In this document: positions 3,080 through 64,000 of the stretch, one piece after another
How the letters are laid out: each line of letters starts with the position of its first letter
Position numbering within the stretch: the stretch's first letter is position 1
DNA from: Chondrosia reniformis
Lineage: Eukaryota > Porifera > Demospongiae > Chondrillida > Chondrillidae
Assembly: GCA_947172415.1 (NCBI GenBank)
Contig: OX359189.1
Span: 5,222,501-5,286,500, forward strand
DNA: 64,000 nucleotides
Reading direction: 5' to 3'
Position numbers and translations under genes: made by a program
The notes under the pieces: model-generated
The model's database searches: none
Told to the model about the DNA's origin: nothing
What the model saw: the letters and a program-made list of their open reading frames with translations, nothing else

Positions 3080-6000
3080 ACATTGATGACCAACATCAAT
3101 TCAAACATGCTGGATACATGTATTCAGTAACTGTGGTACCAATATAGTTCTTTGATCACGGTGTATCCTGTTTATATATACGTATGTATGTGTGCATTAT
3201 TAACAATAATATGGTAGAAACTGGTTTAAGAGAAATCCACGGTGCAGGGCAAAGTCTTTCTCGTTTTCAGTATTTCTTGTTAAGGGGGTATGAACAATTT
3301 AGCATAATAATGAAGATATATATAAAGTTCACAAAGATATATGAAATACATGCAAAGTACAATAGTTATAAAAGAATTCATCTAGTGTCAATGTCTTCAT
3401 TGTTTTAATCTTATAAAGTCGATCGTGCAGGAGCGCTATTTCTTTGGTGAGGCCGTTTCACACAGTATTCAACACAAATGTAAGGAATACTCTTTCGTGT
3501 AAACAGTATTTCTTATTGTAAAGTGATATGTATATGGTGGTTATTGGTTCAAACATGCAGTTCTTGTGTTAACCAGTATTTTTTGTTAACCGGTTTCGAT
3601 TCAGATAACAGATATATAGATCCCCACACAATACCAACTCTTTTGAAAATCTTATTTCCACTGTAATTGACTGTGGAGCAGAAGTCTATAGGGAGTTGTG
3701 ACCCAATGTTGAATAGTAGAGATGTTTCAGAATAGAGCCATAAAGACATCCTAGGTGTAGGTATCCACCACCCCATTACAGATAGTGGTGGAGTATAATT
3801 GGATACCCGTTAGATGGAAAGTTAAAATGAAAACACATGTTCTGGCATAGGTTGATTAGGCTGTCATAGTCTGTATACTCTTAAAAATAATTAAGACTAG
3901 ATGGTACACAAGATTGATGGTATGTTATAACTGGAAGATATTCGAAATTACACTGTACATGGATTTATCAAGAAATGTGTGAAAAGAAGTTATATGAGGA
4001 GAGAATTAGCCAAGGAATGGAAGTAAACCTACAAAGTGGTAGTAAACCAAGTGGTATGATCATGAGTAGGTTATAATGAAAATGAAGTGCATGGAAGAAC
4101 CAGGGCAGACAGTATATACGTATAAGGGACAAAGAAGCCAGAAGCCAATACCTAAGCTGAGAAGTGGGACTGCGAGGTTGAGGATATGGAAGAAGGTAGA
4201 TGGGTAGGTCTAGTGAGAAGTTTGTTTAAATTGTATTACTGAGGTCTGAGATAATATGCATTTGTAAATTGTGAAAACTATAGTGGATTAGAGAAGAACA
4301 TTAATTGAAGAGACAAGCCAGGTTGATATAAACTTAATGAAGTACAGATGTTTATAAGATTCAGTCTAAAACTTGCAGGAATACCATGCAGTATCGCACT
4401 CATACTTCTAAGCCATGCATGCATATATAGATTATATAGTAGTCACCACCTCCACAGTAAGCCACCAAAGAAGGTGAGCAAAGTGTGGCAAATGCTGCTG
4501 GTATTTCCAAATGAAGCAAACAGTGGCACAGCAAAGATTGAAACCCACAAATGTATGTCTTTGCACAAGGGAAAAGAATGCATATTATAGCAATTCCATA
4601 TATGTAATTTCACATGAACTCACTGTATAGTTCCTAGCTGATAGTGCTTCATACACTGCATTCATTTGCAATTGCTCAAATTAGCTCATTACATCACTTA
4701 TGTCTGGTGTGCATCATGAGATGACTATGTTGGCACCTAAGGAGGAGAATGATTATAGGAGGCAATAACATATACAGTATACAGTACAAAGACTCTCATG
4801 CAGCTTTATAGTGCAGCTATACGTATATACACTATCAATTATATCCTAAGCTTGCATTGGTACAGTATACGCATATAGGTGGAGAATCGATTGAAAGCAG
4901 TATAGTGGGAGTTGGTAGAGGATTGAATTGATAATACACTGGAAGTTGGTAGAGGATCGAATTTATACTGAAGCAGGAGTTTGTGGAAGGTCTCTGCACA
5001 TCTCCCAGCTTGCAACAAACAGTGATATTGCAATGGAACCCACCTCTGTGCTAACATACACAATGGCATGGAGCTTGAGTGTGACACTAAAATGCTTTGT
5101 TTATTCAGTCACTTGAAACCCTCTGAAACTCAGCTTAACTGAGTGATTGTACCACATACTCTACCTCCTTGTAACAAGCCAAGTGTGCTTTCACTCGCCT
5201 CTATCCTTCACATGTACATATAGCTCACACCATAGGTTGTGCCAAAATGATATCTTCCTTTATGAATTGCTAATTAAACAATGAGTTAACTGTCTCCTCC
5301 CAGCACATTCATGCTTGTCTTGCTCCAAAAATGAAGTTGACTGTGCTTCATTTGTTGCGGGCCATCAAGAGAACTGTCATTTTGAAACATTTTTGTGGTG
5401 AGTGGAAGTGTTCCTTTTGAGGTATGCATGATAATGTATTGTACCCTCCATATACATGTGGTTACCTAAGGGCCTCAGGCTTAATGCAGAGGGCTGGTAA
5501 GATGGCAAAGGTTGACCCTTGCTCAGATTATCTGGACAAGACATTTGAACAGAAGACAACATATGTGCATTGCTTAATGAAAAGGTGCAGCTTTTGAACT
5601 GATATATAGATAAAACAGCTGTTCAATGCTATCATGTCTATAAAGATGTATTAACACTGTGAGTTGAAGAATTGAAGAATGCCGCACCAATGAGCATGAC
5701 AGGCATGCTTCTGGAGAAGTGGACAAGGTAGATTTGGGAGTGTTTGGAGTATTGTCTGTATGTGTGCATGAAGTGTCCATGTCTATATAATGGGTTGGAT
5801 AAGATGGGTGGTGCAGCTGTGTCCATTTTGTGCAAGCTCACTCTCACGGTGACAGTGACAATGAGTTACCCCAAGACAAATGTGTAACCCTTAAGACTTA
5901 CAAAGAAATAAGGATGGTGACAAAGGCTGTGTACATATATACGTGTAAAGTGTACATGTCTGTCGTGATGAAATATGGAAATACACTTCCTGCTTGGTGA

Positions 6001-6660: not shown

Positions 6661-6855
6661 TCACTCATTGTGCGGTCTGTAGAGTGGGCGACGCTGGTGC
6701 TGCTTCTGATGCTCTGCGAACATGGCCACAAAGAAATTTGTCCAGCCACCCATGCGATTGCGGACCAAATCAAACTGCTGGAAGCGATTGTAGGACTGTT
6801 CATATGTCCAGTTATCAGCGCAGGTCACAGTGACCAAGTTGGACCCAGTCTCACT
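6661..6855 (-). other. glycyl radical loop, C-terminal exon (Gly1454)
   Basis: The last exon encodes TVTCADNWTYEQ, then FDLVRNRMGGWTNFFVAMF, then HQKQHQRRPLY and the stop. DLVRNRMGGW aligns with the DLVVRVxGY radical loop; the second Gly of MGGW (G1454, 27 residues from the end) is the predicted radical site. The loop has Trp where most family members have Tyr or Phe. Confidence 0.85.
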
Positions 6856-9800
6856 CTGTGCAGAGGTAGTGATACACACTTGCAATATTGGGAGACCAAG
6901 AATTCCTTCCTAATTAGTTCAATACTGACCTTGGCAAATGCACGAATGAATTCTTCGAGGCTTTCTTGAGGAAATGACTCAGGGATTCTGATGTCAACCT
7001 CACAGCCATTAGGAATGAACCTAAATGTGCAAAACAGTACTATTTTATGTGACATATATGACACAGCTCTACCATGCCAGGTTTCCAGCTCTAACTGGTA
7101 AGGCGAAAGAACCCTTTTCGTGGTGATTGAAACTCTGTGATAGAGAGTAGATTCTGGGTGCAAACCTCAGTTGTGGCTGATTTTCTCTCGCCTCTGCAGT
7201 TAGAGCTGTAAATTTGGACAACCTTCCTACATAAATACAGCTGGTTCTCAACCCACCTAGCTAGTATAAGTAAGTATAAACATGTATTTACGTCCTCAAT
7301 TAGACATCAACAAAAAAGCCTAATATGTACAAATTGCATACTTGCTCAAACTGCTGTAAGGTTTCAGTGTGTCAATGATGTCCAATTGCTTCTCTGGGGG
7401 GATGTGTGGAACAGGTTTGTCCTGAAATGTGAATTAATTGTTAAAGGTAAAGAACATGCACATGCACATATAACATTATACAGATTGTGAATGGCATTCT
7501 CTTAACCTGAGGGAAAGGCTGAGGACTGCAATCAGAAGCTATTGGCTGTCCACTCAACCGACCATCTGGAGTAGCACCAGAAGAAGTGCCAAGACTGACG
7601 TAGCTTTCAAAACTGCCACTTCCTGTCATAACCTGTGTACAAACAATGCAAATTCACACATGTACACTTGTTTCATCATGAGAAACAGAGCACATTACCT
7701 AAGTAACATGAATTCAATCAGACAAAGTGAGTTGAAGTACCCTTATACGTATGTACAATATTACAGGTGCTCAGTTTGTTCCGACCCTTCACCAATGTGC
7801 ACTTTGATTGGATAGCTACCATGTCTTCTGTAAGGATGTCTAGTATACAGATGCTGCATTATGCCCCAGTGTACTGTATATGTGCTGGGATGTTGCCTGA
7901 TACCATAGGCTGGTGTGAGAAAAAATGCACAGGATATCCATGCTTGTTATTTGCAAAGAATTTGAATAAAATTACGTAAAATTGCTAGCTGCCCAACTTG
8001 AAACATTAACTTGTTTCAATATTTTTATGTAGCAATCTGTAGTTATGTGTACACAATGTGTCAGACAATTGTCTGTATAGTCTCTCTAGCCCCGCTAATG
8101 CACACTTGGTTGCAATTGTGTTGACAAAATGCTGGAAAAGTAGTACCTGAAAGACAAATGGATGGTCTTTAGTGCTAAATTTTGCTCTCAGCTCCTTGTA
8201 GACTTCGGCAAGGTGTCCTTCGTAAAGTACACTGTGGGTGACAGTGTCCATCTCTTTTGCAAGCCAGACAGCAAGCTCATTCAACTACAGTTTGAAGGGG
8301 TTACAATTGATGAGTACCTGTATTAACCACTGGAATATTACTCTGCAAAACTAACCTCATCATTTGCTGTATCTGTTCCAAATTTTGGAAGCTGCAGGGC
8401 ATACTCACGAAGTTCCAAGAACTTCTGCTTTGAGATGTCGGTTTGGATCAAACCCTGTCCAGTGGTGTCAAAGAAGGGTTCAGACATGCTACAATGTCAG
8501 GTAAGTGAAAGGGATATTTGTTACTAGTTATTTATTGCAGGACCAGCCCATCTGAAGCACTATTTGTCTCATGGCCATTGCTGGTTTATTACACAAGGCT
8601 GTGATGTGAATAAGTGTACAAAGTTAGCTAAGTGCCCGAGGGGCCATGCAAAAACTGGTTTGTCTTGTTTCAAACAGAAACAATGTGCAGTTGATCAATT
8701 TTGTTTTGAATTAATTACCAACAAACTAGATTATCATTATATAGTACAGATATTTACAGTATTTTCTTTGTGAAAGACAGCTGATAACCAATAAAAGATA
8801 CATCAAAATGGTACCATTCTTCAGGTAATGTGATGTTTTCTATGCATCGTACTGTAACAGCACAACAGAATTAAACTTCCTTTAATAGTTATTGTTACAA
8901 TTACCTATGTCCCCAGTTGTTAATGAGAGCCATGGTCAATGTTTCGAGAGTGGCAACATTGTTCACATCATCAAAAACCATCTTCTTCACATTGTACAAA
9001 CTGTTGACTGCATTTGCAAACCCAACATACATGGGAGCCATGATGTGGAACCTGTGCAAAATGCAAAATAAGTTGATAGACAATTGTAAATTTGTTTATG
9101 ATTTAATATATGCAATTATACGTATATATGTATTCTTATATTATACGTATATTGGTGTGTCACATTACTCCTGACTTATTCTTTGGTCACCATGCACAAA
9201 TATTAAAATAGCCAAGTATGACCTTAATTCCTCCACAGTTACACTGTATCATTAGTTTCAATTCAATAATGCATTCAAAAGTATAGCAAGAAGGCCATGG
9301 AATGGATGTACTCCATATGTGTGACATCAGAACAATCATTCTTAATCCACTTTATTACGCTTAACAAAAGTTACCTATCCAAAACTTTCTGTAACAATAA
9401 GTGCCATACAGCAGTGACAACTGAAGGAAGTGAGAAATGATTAGTGTCTAACCTTGAACCTCCATTTGTCAAATCAGTTGCACTCTCCAAGCAGTTGGCT
9501 AGGAGGCAGGACAGCATGGGTGAGGGACAGATCTTCCATGGGTTACCATATGCTGTAAGGATAGTTCCAAACAAGTTCTCAACTAAGAGCTGGAGGTGAG
9601 CCACAAAGATATCCTGTTCACAGGAGGTAATAAAATGAGAGAACATGAATACGTCAATACATCACGTGTTGTTTATGTGTGCATAACATGTTACCTTCCT
9701 GCACATTGAGGCATGTTCAATACAGTTTGGCAATAGCCATAAAATAATTATTTGGGTGTGGTATATGGATCTAAACCCTCTTTAGAATCCTTTGAGCCTG

Positions 9801-10233
9801 ATATGGTTTTTGGGACAGTCATGGAATGTATTGGCAGTAAATTAGCGATTTCAATGATTCAAGGCAGCTGTGAAACCATGTGTATATAGTAGGAGACAAT
9901 GATTCAATTATTGAACAGTTTTGATTACTTCCGTTTCTAGCTTCAGGGTACATGCTACTTTCAATTGGAAAGCACTGTGTTGTAGCTATATGTGGCAGTT
10001 TTAGGAAGCCAAAGTTGGCTCTAAGAAGCCTCCAGCTTCATCTGTATTTTTACAGAGGGAGTCTGTGCTATGATTTAAGAATGAAAATGGCCGTATTTCA
10101 CCACATGCAAGCGTTGAAACCCTGGGATCAATCTATCAACAAGATGTTAGATCATATGACTATATTAAAGTTCACTGAGGCACCTTGCCTCCCCCCAGGA
10201 ATGTTTTCAACACGTATATATTTCTGCCTGATT

Positions 10234-10265
<32 letters not shown>

Positions 10266-13200
10266 CAGATTAGCATGACAGTACAGGCTGTGAATTTGCA
10301 TTCATGAATTGACCTGGAATTGATCAAATGTTCTGATATCTTTAGCTAGTGGGGTCCTCCAGGAGCTAGCATCTCCTGCCAAATGAAGTGGACCGGCTGC
10401 CTGGTAATCTCCACCAGCATTCAGTGCGTACATCACAGCCTGTTTGAACAATGCAAAACATCAACTATGTAATATTGTATGTATGTGAAACATTTATAGT
10501 GTCACACAGTGAGTTGCAAACCTTTAGCAGATTAATATATGCAAACTTGAATTCACTTGCTCCTGTGAACATGGGCTCGTAGCAACCATCACATGAATAA
10601 TCCCTAGCATATTCTAACAAATTGGGAGGCCTTGGCAAATTAAGCTTGTCATATGAAGAGCAAAGAACCTCATGGAGACCTACAACAGGAGTTTGGGAGA
10701 CTAAAACACACTAATCTGAGCATACACAACACACTTAGAGTTATAATTCTTGTCAGTAAAACAATTGACAGACCTTCAACCATCTTGTCATCATTGTAGA
10801 GAATGGGGTGGGCTCCTCCACTCAATATAGCCTTGGCGGCTTCCTCAACTACCAATGGTGGTGGGTTGGTGGTGAGACGCAGTGACACACATGGAGCGTT
10901 CAGTGGAAGCCTACGGCATGCCTTCAGGCACATTAAGGTAATGTCATTGTACCCTTCAGCACCGTCTCGTGTGTACCCACCAACAGTCACCTGCAGATCA
11001 AGTAAAACCATGTTAACAAACACACTACTAACAAACTTGTGCATTTTCTATTATGTTACCTGTTGAATCCACTGATTAAGGGAGTCACCTGTTGGAAAAG
11101 GACCACCACGCCCAGTGACAGCGGTACTGCCATATGTAGCATGGCCATAAGGGATATTGTACCGATTGAGGAGAACATGTTCATCAAACTTCATGAAGAA
11201 GCAATCAATGATTTCCTGGGCCTGTTCAGAGAGATCAAAGTACACTTACATATATGTATCATTTGTATCTTAATATAAAGAGAAGAATACTAAAGTCATA
11301 CCCTTTCTGGAGTGATTCTCTTCTTCTCGATGTCTCTCTGATAGTAGCCAATGAGCAGTTGATCCAACCTCCCTACTGAAACAGCCTGGCCAATTAGGTG
11401 CAGGCAACAGTGCATGCTGAAGATCATCTGAACAGCATCACTGTACATGGGATATAATACATGGACAACTGTAATTTCATAAGTGAATATACTGTTTGCT
11501 GCTCTAACCAGAATTAACATTGTTGCTTAGTTTTTGCTATACACAAACACATACGCATGCGCAAATTGTGAAAAGTAAACATAGGAATGTTGAATCTTTT
11601 TTGTAAATGCTAGCTGACAATAAAATGGTTTTCTTAGATAACGATGAAGTTATCCAGAAGTAGCCAAAATATCCAAGAGAACCAGTTTCATATTGATTAG
11701 CATTTATGAATAAGATTCAGTATGAGCTTTCCTAGCCACTCAGGACTTCACATAAACTTAGGAATACTCCAGTAGCTGTGGGCACACTGCCATGAGTGAT
11801 GCTTAGTCCTACACTTATGCTACATAGAGCTGCTGTAACCCACAGCTATAAAGCAAGTAGTATAAGTATAAATGGAAATGAACCACAAGGAGAGCAGAAT
11901 GGAAGTGGTACAGCACGAGATGTCCCAAATTGACTGTGACGGATAAATATAGCATCTTTTGCTGTGGTGGTAAAAATGCCAGTAAATGGTGCAAGACATG
12001 CTAATTTGCAAGATAAAGGTGCTTTGGGGGTGCTTGAGACACCCAAGTGAAGGCGCAGAGGGATTTTTACGGGAAGCGTAGCTGTAAGGCAGGAGGGAGA
12101 GTCGGCCAAAACTCCTTGCAAAGCGGACATTATTAATTGTATTTGTGGGAAGAATAGAGAGTCAGCAGCAAAGGACAAGAGAGACTGGATCTGTTGTGAG
12201 GGCTACATGTGTTGGTCAAATCCTTCTTGCTACCCAGTGGCTCAGGTGGTTGTTGCTAAGGATGACGTGCACTTCCTTTGCTTCTTTTGCTCGACCAACA
12301 TTTTGATGCGGTAGCAAGCCCTTTTAGACAGAGTCGAGGTCAGTTGTAAAGCAATTACAGAAGTGCAGGAATGTCTAAGCTCTTTACGGAAGGAAATGGC
12401 AGTTAGAATCCAAGAATTAACACAAAGGACCGAAGAGAGATGTGTGGAAATTCGAACTCTAATCGGCAAACTGGAGAGCACAAGCACTGAGAAGAAGAAA
12501 CAAGGAAGTTTTGTTGGTAAAGATTCTAAAGTGGAAATGGTACTGACTTTGAATTCAGCAGAGGGTATGATAAGAAAGAAGGGAATATGAAAGCTGTGGG
12601 GGACTGGCAGGCTAATAAATGTAAATTAGGTCCAAAAAGAAATTGGTGCCTACATTGGTACTGACAAAGCAAGGGGGGTAAAAGTAGAAAGAATTATTAA
12701 GAGAAGGAACGGTAAATATATATGGTGGTTTGAGCTTAATGGCTCAGAAAAGTTATTGGTGGAGGTGGAATCACTATGATACATCTACACTACCTCTTCA
12801 TGATTATTGGAGATTGAAAAGGTTAAAGAGCTGCTTTGGGACTACATAAGGGACTAAGAGGAAGATATACGTATATGTGCATTAAGTGGCATGTATGTTG
12901 TATGGGGTGATAAGCAGAACTGTTACTGTGTACAACTGGTGTCAATGTTTATTGTATAGTGCTGCATGGGGCAAAATTTAGCTCAAGTGTGCAACTGCAT
13001 ATGATGCACTTGAATCATTAATAATATAAATAATAAAGATTTATACAGATACTCGTCAACTCTAGACCACAGCTTGGCAATAAATAAATGTCTTGCTGTT
13101 ATTGTGGTCTAAGTAATTTACATTGTGAGTGCAGACGTCCGTTTCTTCAGGCTCAGCAGTGTTTAAGTACACATACAAGTAAAGGATGTCCAAATTTCAC

Positions 13201-16200
13201 ACAGGTGCACTAGGTGACTAACCAAAACCAGTGGCAAAGATAACAGAACTAAATATTGAGTAAAAGAGCAGCTGGCCTCTGGTTTAAAAGAAATTCGAGT
13301 ACACAGTATTGAACATATTTGTGGCATAATTTCACATACATATTCTGGTAAGACTTCCCCCTATCAGTATGTGCTTGCATGAGTACACAAGTGGTTATAT
13401 TACATGCATGCTGAATGCAATTTGCATGATACACGCAGCACTGTAATCATCACAATACTTCTTCTGTACACACAAACAATAATGGAAAAAGGCAGCCGGC
13501 TGACAGTTATTTTGAGCCTTCATTACAATATACTTACATATTTATACCCATTTGACTCTTAAGCGTAAAAAGCCAGTTTTAATATATTAATATATAAAGA
13601 CTGTATGTGTGTACATTAGTTGCGTGTGCTTACTGGAAAGTTAGGTCTTCTTCACCGTCATATTCTGCCAGTTTAAGCATTCGTTGGGCAACATCCTGCA
13701 AATTTTTCCGATCACTGCATTTGATTAAGTAAGAAGGTGTGTAGAATGCATTCATTAACATTACTGTTTATGAACCTACCTTGCTAAAGTGCTGTTAGGA
13801 TCCAATTTATGGTCTGTCTTAAGTGCTAGACGAGCAAACCTCAAGAGGTATAACTGCACACCCTGCAAAATGAAAATGAAAATGATAATGAAATGTATTT
13901 AATATTGCAGAGGCCCTGTACAACTTGAAAACGGAGCAACCTTATTTAGTAGAATACGCCAGTAAATGACCGGATATTTCAGCCTACACATTGAAGATCT
14001 ATATTGAGAGGGCAGGGTAGTCCCATGGCTGAAACGCCCTGTTGTTCATTGATTTATAGTACTTGACTGGCTCAAGAAGTTTGCCATGTTTTCAATTTAA
14101 ATTTACTTCATTAAATTAAGACATTATCTACTAGTGCTGAGCAATAGTATCAATTTTGCAATTATTGTCATAGTAATTTACTATCTTGATTGTGCAAGTG
14201 TCACAATAGTGGGTCTGGAAACAGTGGAAAGAACAAAACCAACCCTAATCTCTTAGTTCTAGCGCTGTGGATAGTTCATTATTTTAGATTCTCTGCCAAA
14301 GATGGCCTAGTTTCATTTAACCTCTTTTCTAATCATGGAATTCAACTTCAATTCATTCTTTGTCCATCAACTATGTACATTGCTTTAGTTTTTTTGTTTC
14401 CTTTATCAATGGGGTATTAGTTATATATAATAATTATTATATATAACTGAATAAGTAATGCAATTTACATTGTTGAAAAGAACTATTGTGATACTATTGA
14501 ATGTCATGATTATTGTCTCAGCAATTATTGTGATAGTAAAAAGCGCTATCACTCAGCCCTAAACATTACAATGAAATTCAGTGGAATTCTATCAAAGGGC
14601 ATTGTACAGAAGTGAAGTATTCATCTGCCGTACTGCATGTACAAAGTATTATTACTTCATGGTCAGGATCATATGATTCTCTTTTAAATAGGCTGACAGG
14701 GAAAGCTATAACACAGTTGATGTGCATTCCTTGCAGGAGTGTGCATGTAGATGAGGACTGTGGGTGCATGTGTATAGCATAGCTCAGCACCTTCAAGCAG
14801 GTAAAAGACAAGAAGGTGGAGATCTACACATAGTAAGAAGAGGAGGGAATGGAAAATGACAAACAACCTGAAGAGATCGAACCAGCAACCGTCTGATCTT
14901 TAGCCTATCCTTTAGCAGCTGAGGGGTCAGGTGAAGATCTGGAGGTCAGTGGTTCTGGTCTGGTTGGCTTCAGTTTTTCCAACCTTTACCATGTGTAGGT
15001 GTACACCCAGTCTATTTAGCACAGGAATAATAACTCACATAAATAATCATAATACTCACCTCATAAGCATACTCAGCTGCTTGCAAGAAAGTGATCTGAT
15101 CACTGGTCAAGCCAGATTCCCTTCTTTTGGCTTTCAAACAGTTTAGTATTCCACTGATTCCCTGTGTAAGCAAGTGAAAACAGCCACAGGTAATTAATAT
15201 TCTGCACGTGACTCTGCATATACGTAGTCTGACATGCATCGAAAGTTGTTCTATTGAATACCTTGGTCAGCACAACTTCATGGTCAGGTACAATGTGCCC
15301 CATGTTTCCAGCCTCTGTAAGCCCAAGGCTCCAAGACAAACTCATTTCTTCCTCCTTCAGATAAGGCATGACTTCCTTTCCACTGCCAAAAGACAGACGC
15401 TCAGTGACCCCAACAATTAGCTCCTGCATGTATCGGTGAAGTAAAGATATCTTGTAGCTTAAAGGTGGACACAGCATTCCTAGATGGATTTCAAGTATTA
15501 CCTTTGGATCCAGCCTGTACGTGTCAAAATTCTCTGAGGTGCCATAGGCAGTTTGACCAGGAGGGGCCCTGCAACAATCATTTGAAAATGAAACATTAGT
15601 CTAAGCTTAATCTAGCATTTTATATGACTGTAAATTTCACCTGTTTGATGTAAGGACCTCCCCAAGCATTTTCTTGTAGCTGTAACCCTTTCGTATCTGA
15701 ATGGGTTGCTCCATAATGTGAGCTTCTTTTTTTGACAGAAATGTGCTCATGTGAGGCAGGCGGGGTACATCAAATTTATGGTACCTGCAAATAGATAGGT
15801 TTAATATACGAGCAAACAATCAAATTAATGAACACAATTCTTATATGAGCTCCCGGATTAATATATTACTCAAGCAATTCATGAATTTCAGAACAAGCCG
15901 GCAATCTTTGTTACAAGTACTCAAACAACTCACCATGCAGAGTGCCAGCGAGCAAAGATGGTGCTCATGAGGTAGAGAACCCTCTTGGTGGGTGGGTCCC
16001 TGCCAGCATATTGATTGGTTGTCATGGTGTACAGGTACTGAATGTGGTTGTAGAATAGAAGTGGATTAGCACTCTTGAACTCCATCCAGAATGGAATAGG
16101 CGGATACAATTCATTGTGGGACAGTGGCTGCAAATCTAACTCTGCTGCACTTGGACAGTAAAAAAAGCATCCAAATTTTCCCATGACATGCGTAAGCATA

Positions 16201-16982
16201 CTATCCTTCATGAAGGCCGCCTCTGCCCGTCCATAGAGATTGCGGAGAATATCAAAGAATCTGGCAACGCTCTTTCCAAATCCAACAAAGAACAGCCCTT
16301 TCTCTTGAGGGCCACTGACACCGCTTTTAGGAACATAGGGCAGGGCCTGGCGCAAGATTTCAAAGTTAGTTCCATCTTTCTTGGAAATAACTCGTGCTCT
16401 CTTAACATGTGATCTCTCCTGCAGCCTGGGAAGGATTTCACCATAGACATCCCTGCCAACCATCTGTTCTTTGTTTGGCTGAGACAAATCATCTAGGGCC
16501 TCGTGATCGAATTTAAAGAACTGAGTGAAAGCAAATGTGGCCCCTTCACAGCTGTGGCCACTCTCAGATGGAATACCGGAAACAATGACCTCCCTTCAGT
16601 ATTGAGGGAAAAGACAGGCAGGAAGCCAAATAATGGCATTACTTAAAAACCAGTAACTATTATCTAAACTGTCCATATAGAACCTGTGTATGCATTAGTA
16701 TTCTAAGTGTAACCAATTAGGAAAACAGTACCTCCACAGGCTCATGGCGTCCACTGCGCTTCCAATTCCATCCAGAAACATTCCTCCAAAAACTTTTCCT
16801 TCATTCTTCTTGTATGCTTCAGTCACCTTGATTGGTTTGTCAAAGTGAGCAAACCAAGGTGCATGTGAGTCTTCAATTACCTAGGAAATATATATATACA
16901 TGTACATGTACATACAACACACATGAAGACTCATACAATGTAACAGTAGAACACAAACTCACACAGCATGCTAGCCCACACA

Positions 16983-17027
<45 letters not shown>

Positions 17028-20000
17028 CTTCTGGCCCCTCCTTGCCCTAATCCCTCCTACCTCTAGCATTGTTTGACAGTACTGACGTTCCTCTGCTTTC
17101 AGGTAGAACCACATGTCACCCTCTGAGTAGGCCAGCCTGCTGCTCTGTAGAGCAAAATTCTTGTCTGGTTTCAGTAGCTCAATAGCCTCGTCTACAGGCT
17201 GAAAGACTACTTTTCCAGTTGCCTTGCAGATATGCTTCCAAACTGTGGGTTGAAATCCCACATTAAAATCAGCATAATCAACCATCATGCCATTCTCAGG
17301 GGGGTGATCAGTATTTGCTTTGTCATTGATAGACCTGCAAGTTGCTGTAATGCATGGAGAATGGACCAGTGATCATGCACTATACTTTGTCCACAACTGT
17401 ATAACAACTTCTTTGACGTATAGACACACTTAGACTAAATTGAAAAAAATGCCCCAAATTGCCTTGCAGATCATGTGACTCATTACACAATAATACAAAA
17501 TATGGCCCTGCTGACATTCCAGCAAGGTTCTTTTTAACCCAGTTTCACCAGACCCTAGGCATGCAGTAGGGTCTGACTGTAAGTTTGAAAATAGTTTTCA
17601 ATTCTGTGTACAACATGTAGCTGAATACTGCAATTATTGAACAATGCAAGCTGAAAGACGTTTTGACCTTGAAGGTATTGTCAGTTACAAAAGTGAAGTG
17701 TTTATAAAGAGAAACATTGGCTCTTTTATGCAGTGGAATGCTGTCATAAATAGCCTAAAGTGTATGTTTTTGGTGAGGTTAAGAATAAATAAGTGGGTTA
17801 ATAGGATAGCAAAGTTAATTAATATTAGAAAGAAAATAAGGAAGACTCTGTACACATCAACACCACCGATATATACAGAGGAATTGTTAGGGTGGGTTTA
17901 GGATAGGATTCCATACTGTGGGCAGCTGCAGGCCACCGTTGATCCAAGTTCATAGTCTCACTGCTGATCTTGATCATGGACAGTGATACCATTCTTGGGG
18001 TCACCTTTCTTCACTGCTTGTTGAGTCTCACCTTGATCTCCCAATGGAATGAGGTGACCCCAAAAATGGTTTTCTTGTCCATGCTCATGAGTCTCACAAC
18101 ATGCATGAGAATTTTAAAACCAAATATTGGCAAAGAAAAGCTACAAAAGCACTCCAGTTCAAGATCAGCAGTGAGACAATGAACTTGGGCAGTAGCCTGC
18201 AGCTGCCCACAGTATAGAATACTATCCTAAACCCACCCTAACAATCCCCCCATAAGTGTGTTGATGTGAACACAATCTTCCTTATTTACTTCCTTGTATC
18301 AATAATTATCCTATTAAGTCACTTATTTATTCATTAGTCACCGGTCACCTCACTAAAAACGTACACTCCAAGCCATTTATGACATCACTCCACTGTATAA
18401 AAAAACCATGTGCTATGTTCAGAATTTACTAACCCTATATATCGCCATAGCCATGAGCCTCTACACTATCATAAACTAAATACATATTACGACAGTGTCC
18501 TACCAAATAATTGTATACATCTATACTGGTCTATATAATTACAGACACTTACCATCCACGGTGTGTACTAGCTTCAGCAAATTCTTTGCATACTTCTCAG
18601 ACACCTGTCTTTTGGCTAACTTTATTGTCACTTGGTAAGCATGGTCTGGGAAGAAGGGTAGGCCCTTCTGAAAAGGAGGATACTCAAATCCTTTTGCTGA
18701 ATCAGGTATTGGCACAAGAGACTCAATAATCCCCATTATTTGAACGTCTACCACCTGCAGAAAGCTATCCAGCTGGAACCTTCTTTGGGCACCATCGATA
18801 GAATCTGAAATGGATTTTAGAGTCTCTGGGTCAAACTCTCCTGCTGCATACTTCACTAGAGCATAGATTGCCAGGGCAGCCTGCTGTACATGAACGTGAT
18901 TGTCATCATTTATTCTACGAAGAAGATTGCTGACAACTACTCTCCGCTCCTCTTGCGTGAAATTGACATTTGTGCCCTTTCGATCTGGTCCTTGAAGCTG
19001 TGCAGTGATATCTAGTGGCTTTTGTACATGTTCCTTCTTGCTAACAGAGGCAATAATGATGGCACCAATCTCTGTTTCCCATTCATCAGCCGTGCTCTCT
19101 TGTGTACCTTTGAGAATTCCAAAGTTTCCAAGGTAGTCATGTCCTTTCTGTGAAATGCAAGAAAATGTACCCACATATTGGTCATTGCTTGACTGGATAT
19201 TACATGTTTCTAGATACTGTGACTCCTTCTAAATACAACATGCATTAGAAGCTACAGTTGCCAGATTGTGAGATTTTAACTATATTTTATGGCACAATAT
19301 ATATATGAGTAGAATAATTCAACGTAATGAAACATTATACCTGCAGAATCATAGATGTTTCTTCCGGAATCAGAGATAGTGGAATTCCCAGTACTTTTGC
19401 AACAATAGCAGTTCTCTTATCTGTTTCTTTGCCAGTAGTGTCCTGCTGCATAACAAAAGACATGCCATCCTAAGGTGTATATATAATTAAGACCTTTGGA
19501 CTCCTGTCAGGCCTTCTACCAAAGATCATACCTGGAGTTGTGGTACATCCACAAGGAGCAAGCCCCCCTCAACAGAGAGTGTGGACCACTCCCATCTGTC
19601 TACCAGGCTCTGTTAAATAGTCAGTAATTACTTAACTTCCCCTTGACTACTTATTGTTTATCATTAACCACACACAGTTGAATTGTTTTGATTTAGTTTG
19701 GTTTGAACTGGTTAACAATTCATCTTGCTAGCTATATATGTCACAACAACACTGTTTATTTCATTCCCTGATGATGATCCCTGTATAGGCATCGAAACGT
19801 TGGAGTTCAGGCTAGAGACAAATGATTAACTGCATGGAAAACCTACCTAGCCACACAAGCCTATTCAAAGATAAGACCTTGATCTGTTCTAGTAGACTAT
19901 ACATCTTCTAGAACAAAATTGAACATTTTGACCCGTAGGTCTTCATCATCAAGTAGGCACCTACCTGCCAGAATGGCTAAGAAAGGATGTAGTTGATTCT

Positions 20001-20893
20001 GTTTTGCAAACAGTCTTGCTGTCGCTTAGTTCTTAACGCATATACCTATGTTGTGTTATAGCTAGATCTATTCCTTGCATAGCGGTGTAACTAAATCCCT
20101 TCTCCACACGACTTCACAGCGAAAGAAGCCTAATATAGGCTATATTGCGAGGACAATCAAGATGAAGGTACACAGCTAATGACCTAGAGCAGTCTCCAAC
20201 GCTAAGTGTCAGATAGCCCCGAGACCAATTTAAAGGTTAGCCACATATCTTGTTGACCCCTGTTCCACCTGAATTTTAACAATGCTAATTCGATATCTGT
20301 ACATAATTTAATTAAGAAGCGGACTTGAGGGGCATGCAAAAAAGTACTTAGCACATGAGCCTGCCAAACAAAAGGGTTATATTCACTTTACAGCCGGCAA
20401 AGGCTCCTGACTGAGGGGAAGTACTATTAGCTTGTTACACGAGCACAGATAAGCCGTAACTCACTGTAACAGAACGGCTCACCACTGTCAAGCGGAAACA
20501 GGGAGGTATGGGGTACAAAAGCTACTACATATGTAGCTCCAATCTTTGCACCCTTTGTACAGCGAGCCTGGAGAATTTAAACTAATACAAATATTTCAAC
20601 TGCGAAAAACCACGCGTTGTATAGCTAATGTAGAGTGTTCCATTAATTAAAAAGGAAAAGGAGGCCCAGGATCTATATTTAATCCACAGTTGTGTGGTAT
20701 TTAGCTGCCATCTCTATCGGTAATACCGGAGCTGTCAACCCAGTCACTCAACTGTCAACTCTGATCATTCTGTGCAATACGACGTGTTGCAAGGAGCTAG
20801 GCAACTACGGGGTATAAATAAATATCTTACTGTTCTCTTTAGCTTTGTTGCTGTTTCAGGCCATCCTTTACTAGCTGATCTTTTCCTTTCCAT
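6661..20893 (-). CDS. DyP-type peroxidase / glycyl radical enzyme (PFL-like) fusion protein, 26 exons, 1481 aa
   Basis: Exons: 20893-20831, 19609-19532, 19445-19341, 19147-18553, 17344-17061, 16880-16732, 16593-15934, 15784-15641, 15568-15502, 15423-15262, 15161-15060, 13862-13780, 13714-13634, 11440-11302, 11221-11060, 10990-10774, 10679-10522, 10439-10314, 9613-9453, 9051-8905, 8488-8356, 8284-8147, 7632-7507, 7421-7342, 7020-6930, 6855-6661. All 25 introns have GT and AG ends and all phases agree: 4446 bases, 1481 codons plus stop. Domain order: about 235 residues unassigned, DyP peroxidase about 235-560, linker, then a whole glycyl radical enzyme about 636-1481. Key residues seen: D412, H487 and R506 (heme pocket); C1063 and E1065 (thiyl site); G1454 (radical glycine). 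The start is the only ATG in the first exon (MERKRSASK). An apparent stop at 13630-13632 lies inside a GTAAGC donor. There is no PTS1 tail (ends PHNE) and no clear secretion signal. The substrate is unknown. Gene structure is certain enough to act on; function is inferred from families. Confidence 0.9.
8147..8488 (-). other. two consecutive fusion-gene exons with an open intron extension
   Basis: Exons 8488-8356 and 8284-8147 encode MSEPFFDTTGQGLIQ to KFSTKDHPFVFQ. The second exon's frame stays open for 45 codons past the GTACTA donor. It is spliced here because the next exon (7632-7507, starting VMTGSGSFESY) restores the family pattern. Confidence 0.75.
10236..10260. repeat. (CA)n(TA)n microsatellite
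   Basis: Short alternating CA run followed by TA run, in the intron between the 10314 and 9613 exons of the fusion gene. Confidence 0.9.
10522..10679 (-). other. glycyl radical enzyme active-site exon (thiyl Cys1063)
   Basis: This 158-base exon encodes the loop SCDGCYEPMFTG. C1063 with E1065 two residues later matches the GC(V)E motif, in which Cys forms the thiyl radical and Glu acts as general base in glycerol/choline-type enzymes. A second Cys three residues earlier (C1060) is extra. The exon starts by completing a split Gly codon and ends with AAG before GTTTGC. Confidence 0.85.
11820..12120. other. probable 5' flank of the ORF1 remnant
   Basis: Non-coding on both strands within intron 13. 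Its base use is more GC-rich and word-balanced than the surrounding intron, so it probably belongs to the same inserted element. Confidence 0.3.
12120..12860 (+). pseudogene. retroelement ORF1 remnant with PHD-like zinc finger and coiled coil
   Basis: Inside the 2.2 kb intron 13 of the fusion gene, on the opposite strand. From about 12128 the plus strand reads INCICGKN, then RDWICCEGYMCW, then SCYPVAQVVV and FLCFFC, a PHD-type Cys/His-like spacing common in ORF1 of LINE-like elements. After a stop and frame change a coiled-coil segment follows (12363-12500: ECLSSLRKEMAVRIQELTQR), then a further broken piece near 12720 (NGKYIWWFELNG). Stops and shifts make it non-functional. The exact family is not identifiable. 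Confidence 0.55.
14132..14561. mobile_element. MITE, hAT-like ends (about 430 bp)
   Basis: Left end TAGTGCTGAGCAATAGTATC; right end reads back as TAGGGCTGAGTGATAGCGC. Both carry internal ATTATTG/CAATAAT inverted words. TAGGGCTGRG(Y)RATA is a typical hAT terminal sequence. No clear 8-base target duplication is visible. It lies in the intron between fusion-gene exons 15161-15060 and 13862-13780. Confidence 0.5.
14870..14950 (-). mobile_element. tRNA-derived SINE-like fragment
   Basis: On the minus strand GGTTCGATCTC is a good pol III B box and AGCTGCTAAAGGATAGG lies at A-box distance. The acceptor stem cannot be paired, so this is not a functional tRNA. Confidence 0.4.
16979..17025. repeat. 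(CA)n microsatellite
   Basis: Near-perfect CA run in the short intron between fusion-gene exons 17344-17061 and 16880-16732. It sits only about 35 bases from the 17061 donor. Confidence 0.95.
17690..18430. mobile_element. large imperfect inverted repeat (foldback element, about 740 bp)
   Basis: Left arm 17720-17990 and right arm 18140-18415 are reverse complements over most of their length. For example GTTAGGGTGGGTTTAGGATA at 17888 is matched by TATCCTAAACCCACCCTAAC near 18222, and GGGCAGCTGCAGG by CCTGCAGCTGCCC. A second nested pair (GGGGTCACC near 17997 and GGTGACCCC near 18053) folds the middle. It occupies intron 4 of the fusion gene, and its transcript would fold into a long hairpin. 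Confidence 0.75.
18691..20893 (-). other. fusion protein N-terminal region, residues 1-235
   Basis: Encoded by exons 1-3 and most of exon 4. It begins with a basic Ser/Thr-rich stretch (MERKRSASKGWPETATKLKR), which could be a nuclear or weak mitochondrial signal; neither is convincing. The rest is mostly helical-looking, with an alternating charged segment (residues about 140-200, containing EERRVVVSNLLRRINDD and HVHVQQAALAIYALVKYAAG). I do not recognise a domain. It may be an extended N-terminal part of the DyP fold. Confidence 0.5.
19764..19960. other. two hammerhead-like cores in opposite orientation
   Basis: Plus strand 19768-19798 has CTGATGA, a GAT..CCTGTATAGG..ATC hairpin, then GAAAC. 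Minus strand 19921-19950 has a related but decayed core (GATGATGAAGACC, TACG loop, GGTCAAAATG). Same family as the hairpins at 31.0, 37.8, 38.4 and 39.6 kb. Located between fusion-gene exon 2 and exon 1. Confidence 0.4.
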
Positions 20894-48900: not shown

Positions 48901-51900
48901 ATGTACATACATATGTATGTATTCTACAGGTTTTACTTGTACGTAAAACATGTAGAATACATGGTAAAAAGGATCACAAACCAAGATATATATACTTCAG
49001 TACATCCAATGCAAAGCTAATGTATACAAGAATATCAGGCCCTTGAATTGGTACAAAACAATGTCATGAGATCATTTACAGGCCTTGGTAAGACTGCTCC
49101 TCTTGTCGGACTCATGGGTGAACTAAACTGGAAGCCATTACACTGGCATACTAAATTTACCACCATTAAATTCTGGCATCACCTTTGTGATCTCCCTATT
49201 AAATGCATGCCCAAGAAGGTATTATTGTTTTTAGCCAAACTTAACCTCAAAGATACATGGTATAGCAATGTTATGGATGTAATCTCTAAATTAATTACCC
49301 CCAATGATGCTCCTTATCCTGCTATTTCTAACCCCAGTAATTTCATGAACACCATCATGTATGATAGATCACACTTCCTCAGTTATACAATGCAACTTAT
49401 AAATAAATTAGCCTTACAAGATTGGACCTTAAGACTAGACACTATAGACAAAAATAGTAGATCTGGGGGCAGGTTAGCTGACTACAGGCTCATTAAGAGA
49501 ACGCCCTCAACTGATGACTATATAAGGACTGGTAATTTTGATAAAAGGAGAGTCCTGGCAGCCCTGAGGTGTGGGTGCCTCCCTCTCGAAATTGAGAAGG
49601 GCAGATTGAGACACCCTAAGGTTGATCTGGAGAGCAGGATTTGCCAGCTGTGTAACTGTGGTGCAATAGAGGACTCCACTCATTTTATTACAACCTGTCC
49701 AGCTTTCAATCATATAAGATGTAATCTTTTTGCTGAATGCTCACTTTTATCCCCTAACTTCTACTCTTACCCAAGTATCCAAAAAAAACACTTCATCCTA
49801 ACATACCCAAATCAAAAGATCTCAAATTATATTTACAGTATGTACATTCATCGTAAATCTCTCACTCATTCTCACTAATTTTTGTTCCATAAAGGTTTTG
49901 TAATACATACACCCTCCCTGCATGGCCCTGGAAATGTATACCCCCTGCTAGTGACTTGTAAACCCACCATGGGTTGGGCTATTTCTGACTGATCTTTTTT
50001 TCAGAATAGCATGTCACATTAATAAAAATCATTATTATTATTATTACACATAGTGATGACACACATGTTCGTATGTAGGTTACCTTAGCACAATATTATA
50101 GAGCTACATATATAAATGTATAACATATAAATCACTAATGACACATATAAAGCATACTCTCATATAGTAGAGCTTCCATGCGAAGGTTCACATAAAAGTA
50201 GGTAAAGTCACGGATCAACACTATCCCTTTCTCCTTCAATTTACAGGTCACCAAACAGGAGAAACAATTAAAATGTAAGTAATCAACACATACATACAAA
50301 TGCTATTTTACAAACACTATCTCATGCTTTCACTACCTCAAAAGGAATAGTCAGTGAGGCTTCCTTTTAGAAAATATTACAAAAGAAGGTAAAATCCAAT
50401 AGAGGATATTTTGAGGTGGTAACCCAGCCAAGTGTGATGTTTGATATTACAAATCAGCAATTTGACTTTCATCAATGGTGAGAGGATAAATATATTGCAC
50501 AGGGCAGCAGGAATGCTATTTATAGTCATTAACACTCCTAAGGACTACTCACGGCTAGTAGGGGCGTACATATGTACACATTACTCATGATCTACATACA
50601 CTCTCATTTGGGTGTGTACTGTCAAGATACACAGACATGTATGTAAATCTACTAGTTCCAGATCAGTAATATATAAACGTATATATGTCAACACAGTAGA
50701 TCCAATATGGAAATGAAACCTAACCTGTACCTTTGACACACTATTCAGAGCAGGGAAAATTCCAACTGCTGAGAGACTATCTATTGCATACACAGATATG
50801 CATGAATGCACTACTCTAAAGGAATGTTATCTAGGCCAACACTTTGGTCGATTCCCCATGATGTCAGGTGGCCAGAACCAACCTCTAAATGGACACTGCT
50901 CAGTAACTCTGGAATGCCAACAGATCAAATGTATGGCTTCAATCATCTATATACATGGTTATGACATAGCGTGCCAATAGTAGTTCAAAAGGCTGCATAC
51001 ACTGTGATATACTAGTTGGCCATTCTGTCCTAGTAACAATTAGTACATATAACAATACTACAGCTGCAACTCAATGCAATATTACAACTACCCATACACA
51101 CTGTATGGAAAAAGGCAAAATGTTTAATAGTCCTTCACAGTCCAACCTAGACAACTTACAACATACGTATCTGCCAAGCAGCATCAAATGTACACATATG
51201 TACACACAGCCAATATATAAATTAGGACCTACATATACCTACGTATGTTCCTATGTATGAACATGTATGCCTGTAAGGCCAATGCATACACTATATAAGG
51301 ATTTGATATAGAAACTGCGACAAAACCAAAATAATGGCTGATGCTAGAGTTTAACTGATCAATTAATTTATACCTTATCTACATTATCCAACAAAGCTCT
51401 TGCCTATGAATATTAAAAACAAAGCTCTTGCCTATGAATATTAATAGTAGAAGTTGCTTACACAGATATGAGCTGTGTCATGTAGTACATGCTGACAAGT
51501 CAGATTTTGATTGCTGAAATTGATATACGTACGTATGTACAAAAGAAAATTTTTAAAACCAATAAAGTTTGCTTCCTTCTATAATGGAGTTTCATAAATT
51601 GACTGTATACCTAATCATGTCACCTATGTATATATTTCAAGAGGAAGAAAGTCTCTATTCTATTAAACTGCTGACACAAGGACTTGTAAAACTTCTAAAA
51701 TTCATTTTATATTCACCTTAAAAGCAAAGTCAGTATGTTTATTCAATAAACACACATAACTAGATTCATTTTCATTACTGAACCACTGGTTATTGTAAAC
51801 TTGTTATTATTATTTGTTATATTAGCTAAACAGACACAGCTTATAAAACTGCATAATAAAAGGTACATACACATATGTATGTACCTAAATGTGACAGTGT

Positions 51901-62610: not shown

Positions 62611-62758
62611 AAACCATTGCTTGCATAAACACTCTGATTGATGACCTATTTCTGTACATACATGTACGTACTTGGTCTTGTATTTATATTCTATATACGT
62701 ATATATATATTTAATTATATTCCGTAATGTATAACCGATTCTTTGATTTTAGCGGTAC

Positions 62759-63877
62759 ATGTTGAGAGAATTTCACCAGACGCTTTTATATGTCGGCAGT
62801 GGTTCGCTAATTAATCCTCCCAAGGAGGCCGACGAAATGCCTTGGAAACGTTGCTCAATACGTAGGTCAATAACAATGGCGACGAATCCCTGGGTTGGGT
62901 CGGCGTCAGACACATTTCCTGGAGCTTCAAATTTACATGAGCATGATGTACAGTTAGACCAAAATAGCGAGGATGACAGAAGTAACAGCGACAGTTCGTC
63001 GGCCGTTAGGTATCAAGCAGAATCAAGACAACGACGGTCCGTCTACCCGAACACCAAGCGATACTATTTGAGTTTTATTTCGTTTTGCACTTCATTTTGC
63101 CTAATTTATGCAGCCTTCTTTCCTCTTCAATCACTTCAAGGATCACTTAACGCTACAGTAGGGTTTGTTTCTTTGGCTTCCCTTTACGTATGTTTTCAAT
63201 TATCATCCACGGTTGCTCCCATTTTCAACAAAATCTTTGGCCCGAAGTATGTCATAGTGACAGCGTACTTCTTCTTTGTATTGTACACGGCTTGTAACTA
63301 TTACCCTGAAACGTATACCCTTATACCGAGCTCGGTGGCACTCGGATGTGCCCATGGACCTCTCTGGGCAGCAGCCAATTTTTATACTGTGTCTCAGGCC
63401 AAGAAAGTAGCTGCTGTCTTACGAAAGAAACCCGAGGCATATATAGGAAAATTTACTGGAATTTTCTTTATGTTTTTCTTTGTTGGTGGATGTATTGGTA
63501 ATGCTATAGCCAGTAGTATACTCTTGCCAGACTCGGGAGGACTGAACATTCCCAGCAGCAACAGCAGTAATGGAAGTGGAGTGCAGTGCAATATTGACCC
63601 ATCACTGACAGCTGAAGTGTCGCCATGGGCCCGCTATACCTTGCTTTCCATCTATCTTAGCTTTGATATTGCAGCTATTGTGACTGCTGCGTTTGGAATG
63701 AAGAAAATAGGAGAAACTTCATATACTGAGAAAAGTTTGAAAATGTTTGTTAGAGAGGGTAAATCTAATGCTAAGACATTAATAAAGATGTTTTTCAACT
63801 GGAAATACATGCTAGTGATGCCAGTTATCTGCTATCAAGGACTACATAGTGCTTTCATTTCAGGAGCTTTCAATAAG
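62759..63877 (+). CDS. UNC-93-like membrane protein, first exon (gene continues past the window)
   Basis: The open frame runs to a GTGAGT donor at 63878; the remaining exons lie outside the window. A hydrophilic N-terminus is followed by membrane spans of the MFS-like UNC-93 family: FCTSFCLIYAAFFPLQSLQG, SLASLYVCFQLSSTVAPIF, YFFFVLYTACNYYPETY, ALGCAHGPLWAAANFYTVS, FTGIFFMFFFVGGCIGNAIA, a glycosylatable loop (SSNSSNGSG), then YLSFDIAAIVTAAFG. The ASN.. LQSSL-like and GPLWAAQG-like segments are typical of UNC93A/UNC-93, which modulate K+ channels or traffic receptors. Starts possible at 62759 or at 62876 (MATNPWVG, with the stronger ACAATGG context). Which paralogue it is cannot be said. Confidence 0.88.
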
Positions 63878-64000
63878 GTGAGTATGGTTGCACATTGTAT
63901 AGGTACGGCTACATAAGTACAATGCTAACTTTATGTTATAGTGTTATTCCAAAGTGCAGTCTTTTAGGAATTGCCACTCCAGTGTGTTTTCATTACTTTG

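Follow-up and report, generated by a model that had tools for sequence, protein, structure and literature searches.

A 64,000-nucleotide stretch of the genome of the sponge Chondrosia reniformis (contig OX359189.1, positions 5,222,501 to 5,286,500 of the forward strand; hereafter the window, to whose first letter the positions below refer) carries a minus-strand gene that, by its gene model, is near certain to encode a single protein joining a DyP-type heme peroxidase to a glycyl radical enzyme (GRE). The GRE belongs to a clade whose members are always fused to, or placed directly before, a DyP wherever this could be judged, and the canonical radical S-adenosylmethionine (radical-SAM) activase was not found by profile in the sponge or in most carriers of the clade. 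Since the relatives keep the pairing and mostly lack the usual activase, the peroxidase may be the switch; we propose, at somewhat less than an even chance, that the DyP heme peroxidase, fed by hydrogen peroxide (H2O2), takes the part of the activase and generates or restores the GRE radical.

The features that define the gene are:
6661..20893, minus strand: DyP-GRE fusion gene, a spliced model of 25 exons and 1,482 codons.
15934..16593, minus strand: exon 6, residues 426-645, with the DyP core and conserved linker in one exon.
6661..15784, minus strand: exons 7-25, the remaining linker and the GRE domain (residues 717-1482, from 15423).

As rebuilt from the window, the model runs from a first ATG at 20893 to a stop codon that ends at 6661; it comprises 4,449 nt including the stop, has GT..AG at all exon borders and contains no internal stops, with a G+C content of 45.8% in exons versus 37.6% in introns. 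The 78-nt intron 8 is itself in frame, and was taken as an intron because the relatives read across it without a gap (consensus YRIxPEELIVG; YRLDPKELIVG in the sponge). The original prediction had given 26 exons and 1481 codons, figures which the rebuilt model replaces, while its in-frame joining and its substance stand. Its reading of one gene in an animal genome, DyP first and PFL-like GRE second, was borne out by the bridging exon 6, by the domain matches described below and by an open reading frame (ORF) with an UNC-93 domain at 62753-63913 of the same window. Exon 6 holds the DyP core and also the beginning of the conserved linker, which leaves no place for a gene border between the two halves, and the same order within a single ORF in bacterial relatives makes a two-gene reading unlikely; two genes read as one were rejected on these grounds, exon 6 spanning the join and the bacterial fusions. 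In the sponge genome (117,379,552 bases in 15 contigs), the GRE half matches the fusion locus alone at E<=0.001 (17 matches).

The N-terminal half is near certain to be a DyP-type peroxidase, judged by a family model and by the presence of the distal Asp, proximal His and distal Arg:
16116..18679, minus strand: DyP heme peroxidase domain, residues ~240-585, which begins at the end of exon 3, takes in exons 4-5 and fills most of exon 6.
16770..16772, minus strand: distal Asp413 (GGMFLDG, GxxDG-like), an acid in 54/54 fused rows.
16407..16409, minus strand: His488 (ERSHVKRA), candidate proximal heme ligand, His in 54/54 fused rows.
16350..16352, minus strand: distal Arg507 (EILRQALPY), Arg in 54/54 fused rows.

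The start of this domain was placed by eye from the match of QKGLPFFP/QRGLVYPSP to relatives. NCBIfam TIGR01413 (Dyp_perox_fam) matched residues 278-577 at 111.8 bits (cut-off 100.5), and Pfam PF20628 (Dyp_perox_C) matched residues 429-576 at E 2.3e-15 (57.2 bits, cut-off 20). The distal acid is Glu in 45 fused rows and Asp in 9, the sponge being among the latter. Compared with the Andreprevotia fusion L019, the sponge DyP is 31% identical over 253 aligned residues and the linker (residues 586-716) 29% identical over 119.

The C-terminal half is near certain to be a PFL-like GRE with a putative glycyl radical site; Pfam PF02901 (PFL-like) covers residues 747-1285 at E 5.5e-90 (303.3 bits). Both halves of the protein match domain models, whereas no match in either half would have refuted the original prediction; among the three families that it named, PF02901 was found, and PF04261 and PF01228 (Gly_radical) gave no match in the sponge protein at E<=0.1, the latter matching weakly in relative L059 (E 0.027). 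In a profile of 42 bacterial fusions, their RMGGW nevertheless falls on the loop that reads RVAGY in solved GREs, and their Cys and Gly on those of the solved dehydratases 1r8w and 5i2a. The residues concerned are:
10576..10584, minus strand: catalytic Cys1064, clade-specific Tyr1065 and Glu1066 (DGCYEP), with C, Y and E in 69/69 clade rows.
6742..6747, minus strand: radical Gly1455 and clade-specific Trp1456 (RMGGW), with Gly and Trp in 69/69 clade rows.

Every one of the 69 rows (66 GTDB loci, L087, Asticcacaulis and the sponge) contains DGCYE and GGW. Cys1064, Arg1452 and Gly1455 are common to the clade and to 12/12 canonical GREs, and Glu1066 occurs in 6/12 of these as well. The position after the Cys is Val in ten canonical GREs, Ile in one and Thr in one (Tyr in 0/12), and the position after the Gly is Tyr in eleven and Phe in one (Trp in 0/12). 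The GRE represents a distinct clade, in which the residues for radical chemistry (Cys and the radical-site Gly) are invariant, as are the Tyr that follows the Cys and the Trp that follows the Gly. Conservation is higher here than in the peroxidase half, the sponge GRE being 45% identical to that of L019 over 725 aligned residues. A predicted model of a bacterial relative rather than of the sponge protein, Andreprevotia sp. L022 (42 sequences, mean pLDDT 81.0, pTM 0.85), matched DyP structures at residues 6-308 and 1,2-propanediol dehydratase at residues 349-1171 (Foldseek).

The relatives were gathered by scanning GTDB contigs with GRE patterns, which gave 68 loci, 67 of them in the clade; these 67 loci, with their DyP pairing, are newly described here. 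L086 was dropped (a 93-aa ORF without motifs), L085 was left out of the alignments (GRE frame broken), and L065, L070 and L073 were retained in the GRE alignments and not counted for DyP pairing. The 67 comprise 51 intact fusions of 1,173-1,592 aa, 13 stand-alone GREs of 835-913 aa, L085, whose DyP is fused to the broken GRE frame, and L065 and L073, which start inside the GRE; as ORFs were taken from stop to stop, N-termini may be overlong. In every judgeable GTDB locus (64/64) the GRE is paired with a DyP, fused in 52 and with an adjoining DyP gene of another subfamily in 12. A DyP profile built from the fused rows matched 54 loci that are not stand-alone, namely the 51 intact fusions, L085, L087 and Asticcacaulis L017. 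A tblastn search of plasmids yielded this last, a 1,326-aa protein of Asticcacaulis sp. AND118 annotated as a Dyp-type peroxidase (36% identity over 99% of the GRE half), together with a locus of Hymenobacter cellulosilyticus in which the GRE is split into two ORFs that are followed by a DyP gene. Used as a query, the Hymenobacter DyP matched an ORF that either follows the GRE at once or overlaps its end at 12 of the 13 stand-alone loci and at Hymenobacter itself; the thirteenth, L070, sits at a contig end. The fused and stand-alone DyP groups barely match one another (one stand-alone locus, 20.9 bits), and DyP domains were recognised by Pfam in examples of both (fused L019, L024, L028 and the sponge; stand-alone P0004, L067 and L068).

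The bacterial relatives (L019-L085; Andreprevotia, Azohydromonas, Massilia, Pseudomonas cichorii, Pedobacter and others) share with the sponge the domain order (where fused), DGCYE and GGW, the heme-pocket His and Arg, and the linker, but lack introns and mostly have Glu as the distal acid. The stand-alone pairs (Hymenobacter, Sphingomonas, Ensifer, Flavobacterium and others) share the GRE clade, its motifs and a DyP partner, but consist of two genes, draw on the other DyP group and have DGCYET instead of DGCYEP in 12/13 GTDB loci. Sequence identities were calculated for 11/68 relatives.

The original prediction knew of no described animal protein of this architecture, but the architecture as such is not new: besides the 51 intact fused ORFs, PMC5041501 describes a DyP-PFL fusion in the fungus Chaetomium cochliodes (dyprx) and states that further genomes carry it, those of prokaryotes as well as of eukaryotes. 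As described there, dyprx and its relatives resemble the sponge protein in carrying an N-terminal DyP and a C-terminal PFL-like domain in one chain; the sponge gene differs in its host, its 25 exons, its ~235 extra N-terminal residues and the lack of a detected activase in the genome. Apart from PMC5041501, the literature searched was not found to treat DyP-PFL, the passages seen of PMC4420034, PMC13253662, PMC4784904, PMC13342648 and PMC9524095 being negative, and no animal DyP-GRE fusion, or any animal GRE, was found described in it. More distant kin are 1,2-propanediol dehydratase (5i2g/5i2a) and B12-independent glycerol dehydratase (1r8w), whose sequence identity is low (20-23%) and which have Val after the Cys where the clade has Tyr. 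The DyP peroxidases YfeX, KpDyP, DtpB and DypB have no GRE fusion, and their GxxDG motif is altered in most clade relatives. Canonical dehydratase GREs are activated by a radical-SAM protein, and are not known to have a peroxidase partner.

The activase profile TIGR02493 was run on 67 carrier genomes (50 and 17) and TIGR02494 on 50 of these. TIGR02493 exceeded its cut-off in 4/50 and 0/17 carriers, that is in 4/67, and also in none for G068, the genome of the dropped L086. A canonical PFL (PF02901, 690-725 bits) was present in exactly those four carriers and in 0/63 of the others, and in the four the activase match lay 0.4-1.1 kb from the canonical PFL match; the one-sided Fisher value for this co-occurrence, 1.3e-6, is overstated because the carriers are related. 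TIGR02494 exceeded its cut-off in 2/50 carriers, both among the four. PF02901 matches in the other carriers were to the clade GRE, in two frames in G050 and with a further 58.5-bit piece in G062; in Archangium G021 the DyP-GRE of L039 is not the sole PF02901 ORF, another of 1,219 aa being present at contig C291:145706-147259. Among 14 control genomes, PF02901 matched E. coli, Bacteroides ihuae and Lactococcus lactis, and TIGR02493 matched seven, those three included, exceeding its cut-off in three. At annotated canonical GRE loci the activase gene adjoins in 6/7. When the flanks of clade loci were scanned for CxxxCxxC in ORFs >150 aa, one plausible radical-SAM ORF was seen, at L078; the remaining motif matches read by eye as chance frames or zinc sites. 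In the sponge genome, TIGR02493 gave no match at E<=10 in an exon-by-exon search, which a divergent, split activase gene could escape; TIGR02494 gave a match at E 0.043 to what looks like a ferredoxin domain, and by eye the radical-SAM exons were taken for LIAS, CDK5RAP1, CDKAL1, TYW1 and MOCS1.

If the peroxidase does start the radical, H2O2 would convert the DyP heme to Compound I, and the oxidising equivalent would pass from Compound I through Tyr/Trp relays into the GRE barrel, reaching Cys1064 via Tyr1065 and other aromatics. A thiyl/glycyl radical would thereby be made, or remade after damage, without S-adenosylmethionine, Compound I supplying what radical-SAM chemistry supplies elsewhere. 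The barrel would then perform a dehydratase- or lyase-type elimination, which is likely given the Cys-x-Glu motif and a fold closest to 1,2-propanediol dehydratase. In aerobic class I ribonucleotide reductase a tyrosyl radical feeds a Cys, and this enzyme is the nearest working analogy: it is no relative, but would share a Tyr-to-Cys radical relay under oxygen, and differs in its di-iron or other metallo-cofactor and its two subunits. The wider form of the proposal, that the peroxidase has replaced the activase, with DyP and H2O2 generating the glycyl/thiyl radical via Tyr1065 and Trp1456 and the GRE working in oxygenated cells, the animal's included, is more doubtful and is offered tentatively.

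Several observations weigh against activation by the peroxidase. The absence of an activase rests on profiles, which might overlook a divergent radical-SAM activase, especially in the sponge, where its gene could be split by introns; the carriers are not phylogenetically independent, and many are draft genomes or metagenome-assembled genomes. Weak TIGR02493 matches (36-62 bits) are the sole ones in 17/50 and 2/17 carriers, and TIGR02494 matches at E<=0.001 occur in 39/50, many of them over ferredoxin positions. Trinickia terrae G015 (L092) has a frame-broken activase-like remnant (116.6 bits) in a genome with an intact DyP-GRE ORF, and on contig C157 of Chromobacterium G019 only ~6-8 kb separate the DyP-GRE from a canonical PFL and its activase. 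That the three controls over the TIGR02493 cut-off are the three PFL-bearing ones is inferred only. Finally, PMC5041501 reports that Chaetomium cochliodes has a putative PFL activase, which it regards as the activator.

This fungal activase, the weak radical-SAM matches in part of the carriers, the radical-SAM genes of the sponge and the induction of the fungal fusion gene by peroxide (also reported in PMC5041501) would all suit an arrangement in which an unrecognised radical-SAM protein encoded elsewhere activates the GRE and the DyP does no more than clear H2O2 or organic peroxides from the surroundings of the oxygen-sensitive radical. We consider this unlikely, albeit a reading to be taken seriously: TIGR02493 exceeds its cut-off in just 4/67 carriers, each time beside the carrier's own canonical PFL, in the motif scan of ORFs >150 aa, judged by eye, L078 alone has a plausible radical-SAM ORF in its flanks, and a protective peroxidase would not need the invariant Tyr1065 and Trp1456. 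The original prediction had suggested such scavenging beside the radical, or sequential action of both domains on one substrate; either is possible, but both leave the lack of an activase in most carriers and the invariant Tyr and Trp unexplained. Its further suggestion of use during low-oxygen periods finds little support, as the bacterial carriers belong mostly to genera that we take to be aerobes.

It is improbable that the GRE has lost its radical chemistry and acts as a substrate-binding barrel or scaffold for the peroxidase. The lack of an activase over cut-off in 63/67 carriers and of a PF01228 match in the sponge protein would fit such a loss; however, Cys, Glu and Gly are invariant in 69/69 clade rows across several phyla, and in the sponge it is the GRE half that is the better conserved (45% vs 31% to L019). 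Slightly more improbable is tandem catalysis, in which the DyP would oxidise an often phenolic substrate and leave the product to the GRE barrel to cleave or dehydrate. Fusion and operon-like pairing are in keeping with consecutive steps, as are the VOC/glyoxalase proteins or cytidine deaminase at some stand-alone loci, but one GRE clade is served by two different DyP groups, no conserved substrate-pathway gene was seen at the fused loci examined, and the activase gap is left unexplained. An assembly artefact or bacterial contamination is practically out of the question even though the sponge is rich in bacteria (PMC12181767), given the chromosome-scale contig, 24 introns with GT-AG borders, whose structure contradicts it, the UNC-93-domain ORF in the window, an identity of at most 44-45% to the bacterial rows compared, and an assembly of 117.37 Mb (14 chromosomes plus a mitochondrion) for which Hi-C confirmation of the chromosome scaffolds is reported (PMC12181767).

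In the GRE tree the 13 stand-alone loci form one clade and the sponge lies with the fused loci on a long branch (end branch 2.46); support for grouping it with Andreprevotia is ~41, and its grouping with the stand-alone GREs was not rejected (p-AU 0.219). Most simply, the gene would have come from bacteria and acquired its introns later; descent from an early eukaryotic copy is possible. A viral source was set aside, IMG/VR scans having matched only L087, whose GRE equals that of Burkholderia cepacia L034 over the compared region.

Two further features belong to the gene:
18680..20893, minus strand: exons 1-2 and most of exon 3, an N-terminal extension (residues 1 to ~239) with no recognised bacterial counterpart.
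11441..13633, no strand assigned: intron 12, 2,193 nt, with plus-strand ORFs resembling retroelement remnants by eye.

For exons 1-2 (residues 1-56) no homologue was found against which to check them, and a single-sequence fold of exon 3 was uninformative (mean pLDDT 38.8). Before the column of sponge residue 281, six of eight relatives measured have 51-105 residues, and the two from Actinophytocola (L028, L032) ~355; these long extensions are poorly alignable beside the sponge's ~235 matchless residues. Retroelement-like ORFs were noted by eye at 11846-12600 (within intron 12) and at 49021-49875, with a Cys-rich finger and coiled coil and a reverse-transcriptase-like end, and a Pfam search of them gave no confident match; a (CA)n microsatellite lies within intron 4 (16977-17025). 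Elsewhere in the sponge genome, contig C5 carries a second, ordinary DyP gene (G000:C5:8725253-8725776; L120, L121), intron-split and with a GFVDGTENP motif, near which no GRE match was found.

A gene cluster recurs at 9/14 stand-alone loci (the Hymenobacter plasmid included) and at fused L031 and L036; its members at L079 and L081 are PLD-like by Pfam. Stand-alone GRE-DyP pairs with a nearby PLD-like cluster are L018, L059, L064, L067, L071, L075, L078, L079 and L081, and single loci add VOC, Trypsin_2, Endonuclease_NS, AAA_16, CHAT, KAP NTPase or cytidine deaminase domains. Gene sets of such domains recall bacterial conflict islands. No constant place in defence islands is claimed: PLD, trypsin, endonuclease, AAA_16 and CHAT domains are found next to stand-alone pairs, but PADLOC gave 0 matches for the three GRE/DyP proteins tried and only weak ones for 5/7 neighbours; a conserved pathway at fused loci was rejected as well, since neighbours vary among those examined. 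At Hellea L078 the GRE-DyP pair has, a few kb upstream (3268-5909), a LodA_N-domain ORF and the CxxxCxxC radical-SAM-like ORF; LodA_N is of the lysine epsilon-oxidase type, presumably a producer of H2O2.

In the textbook view, glycyl radical chemistry is anaerobic, depends on activation by a radical-SAM enzyme and does not survive oxygen. The sponge gene is a candidate GRE in an animal, and the question of its activation is open to direct test with one purified protein, H2O2 and electron paramagnetic resonance. A clade with intact radical residues, a DyP pairing wherever this could be judged and mostly no recognisable activase, kept in an animal, points to a second way of starting radical chemistry.

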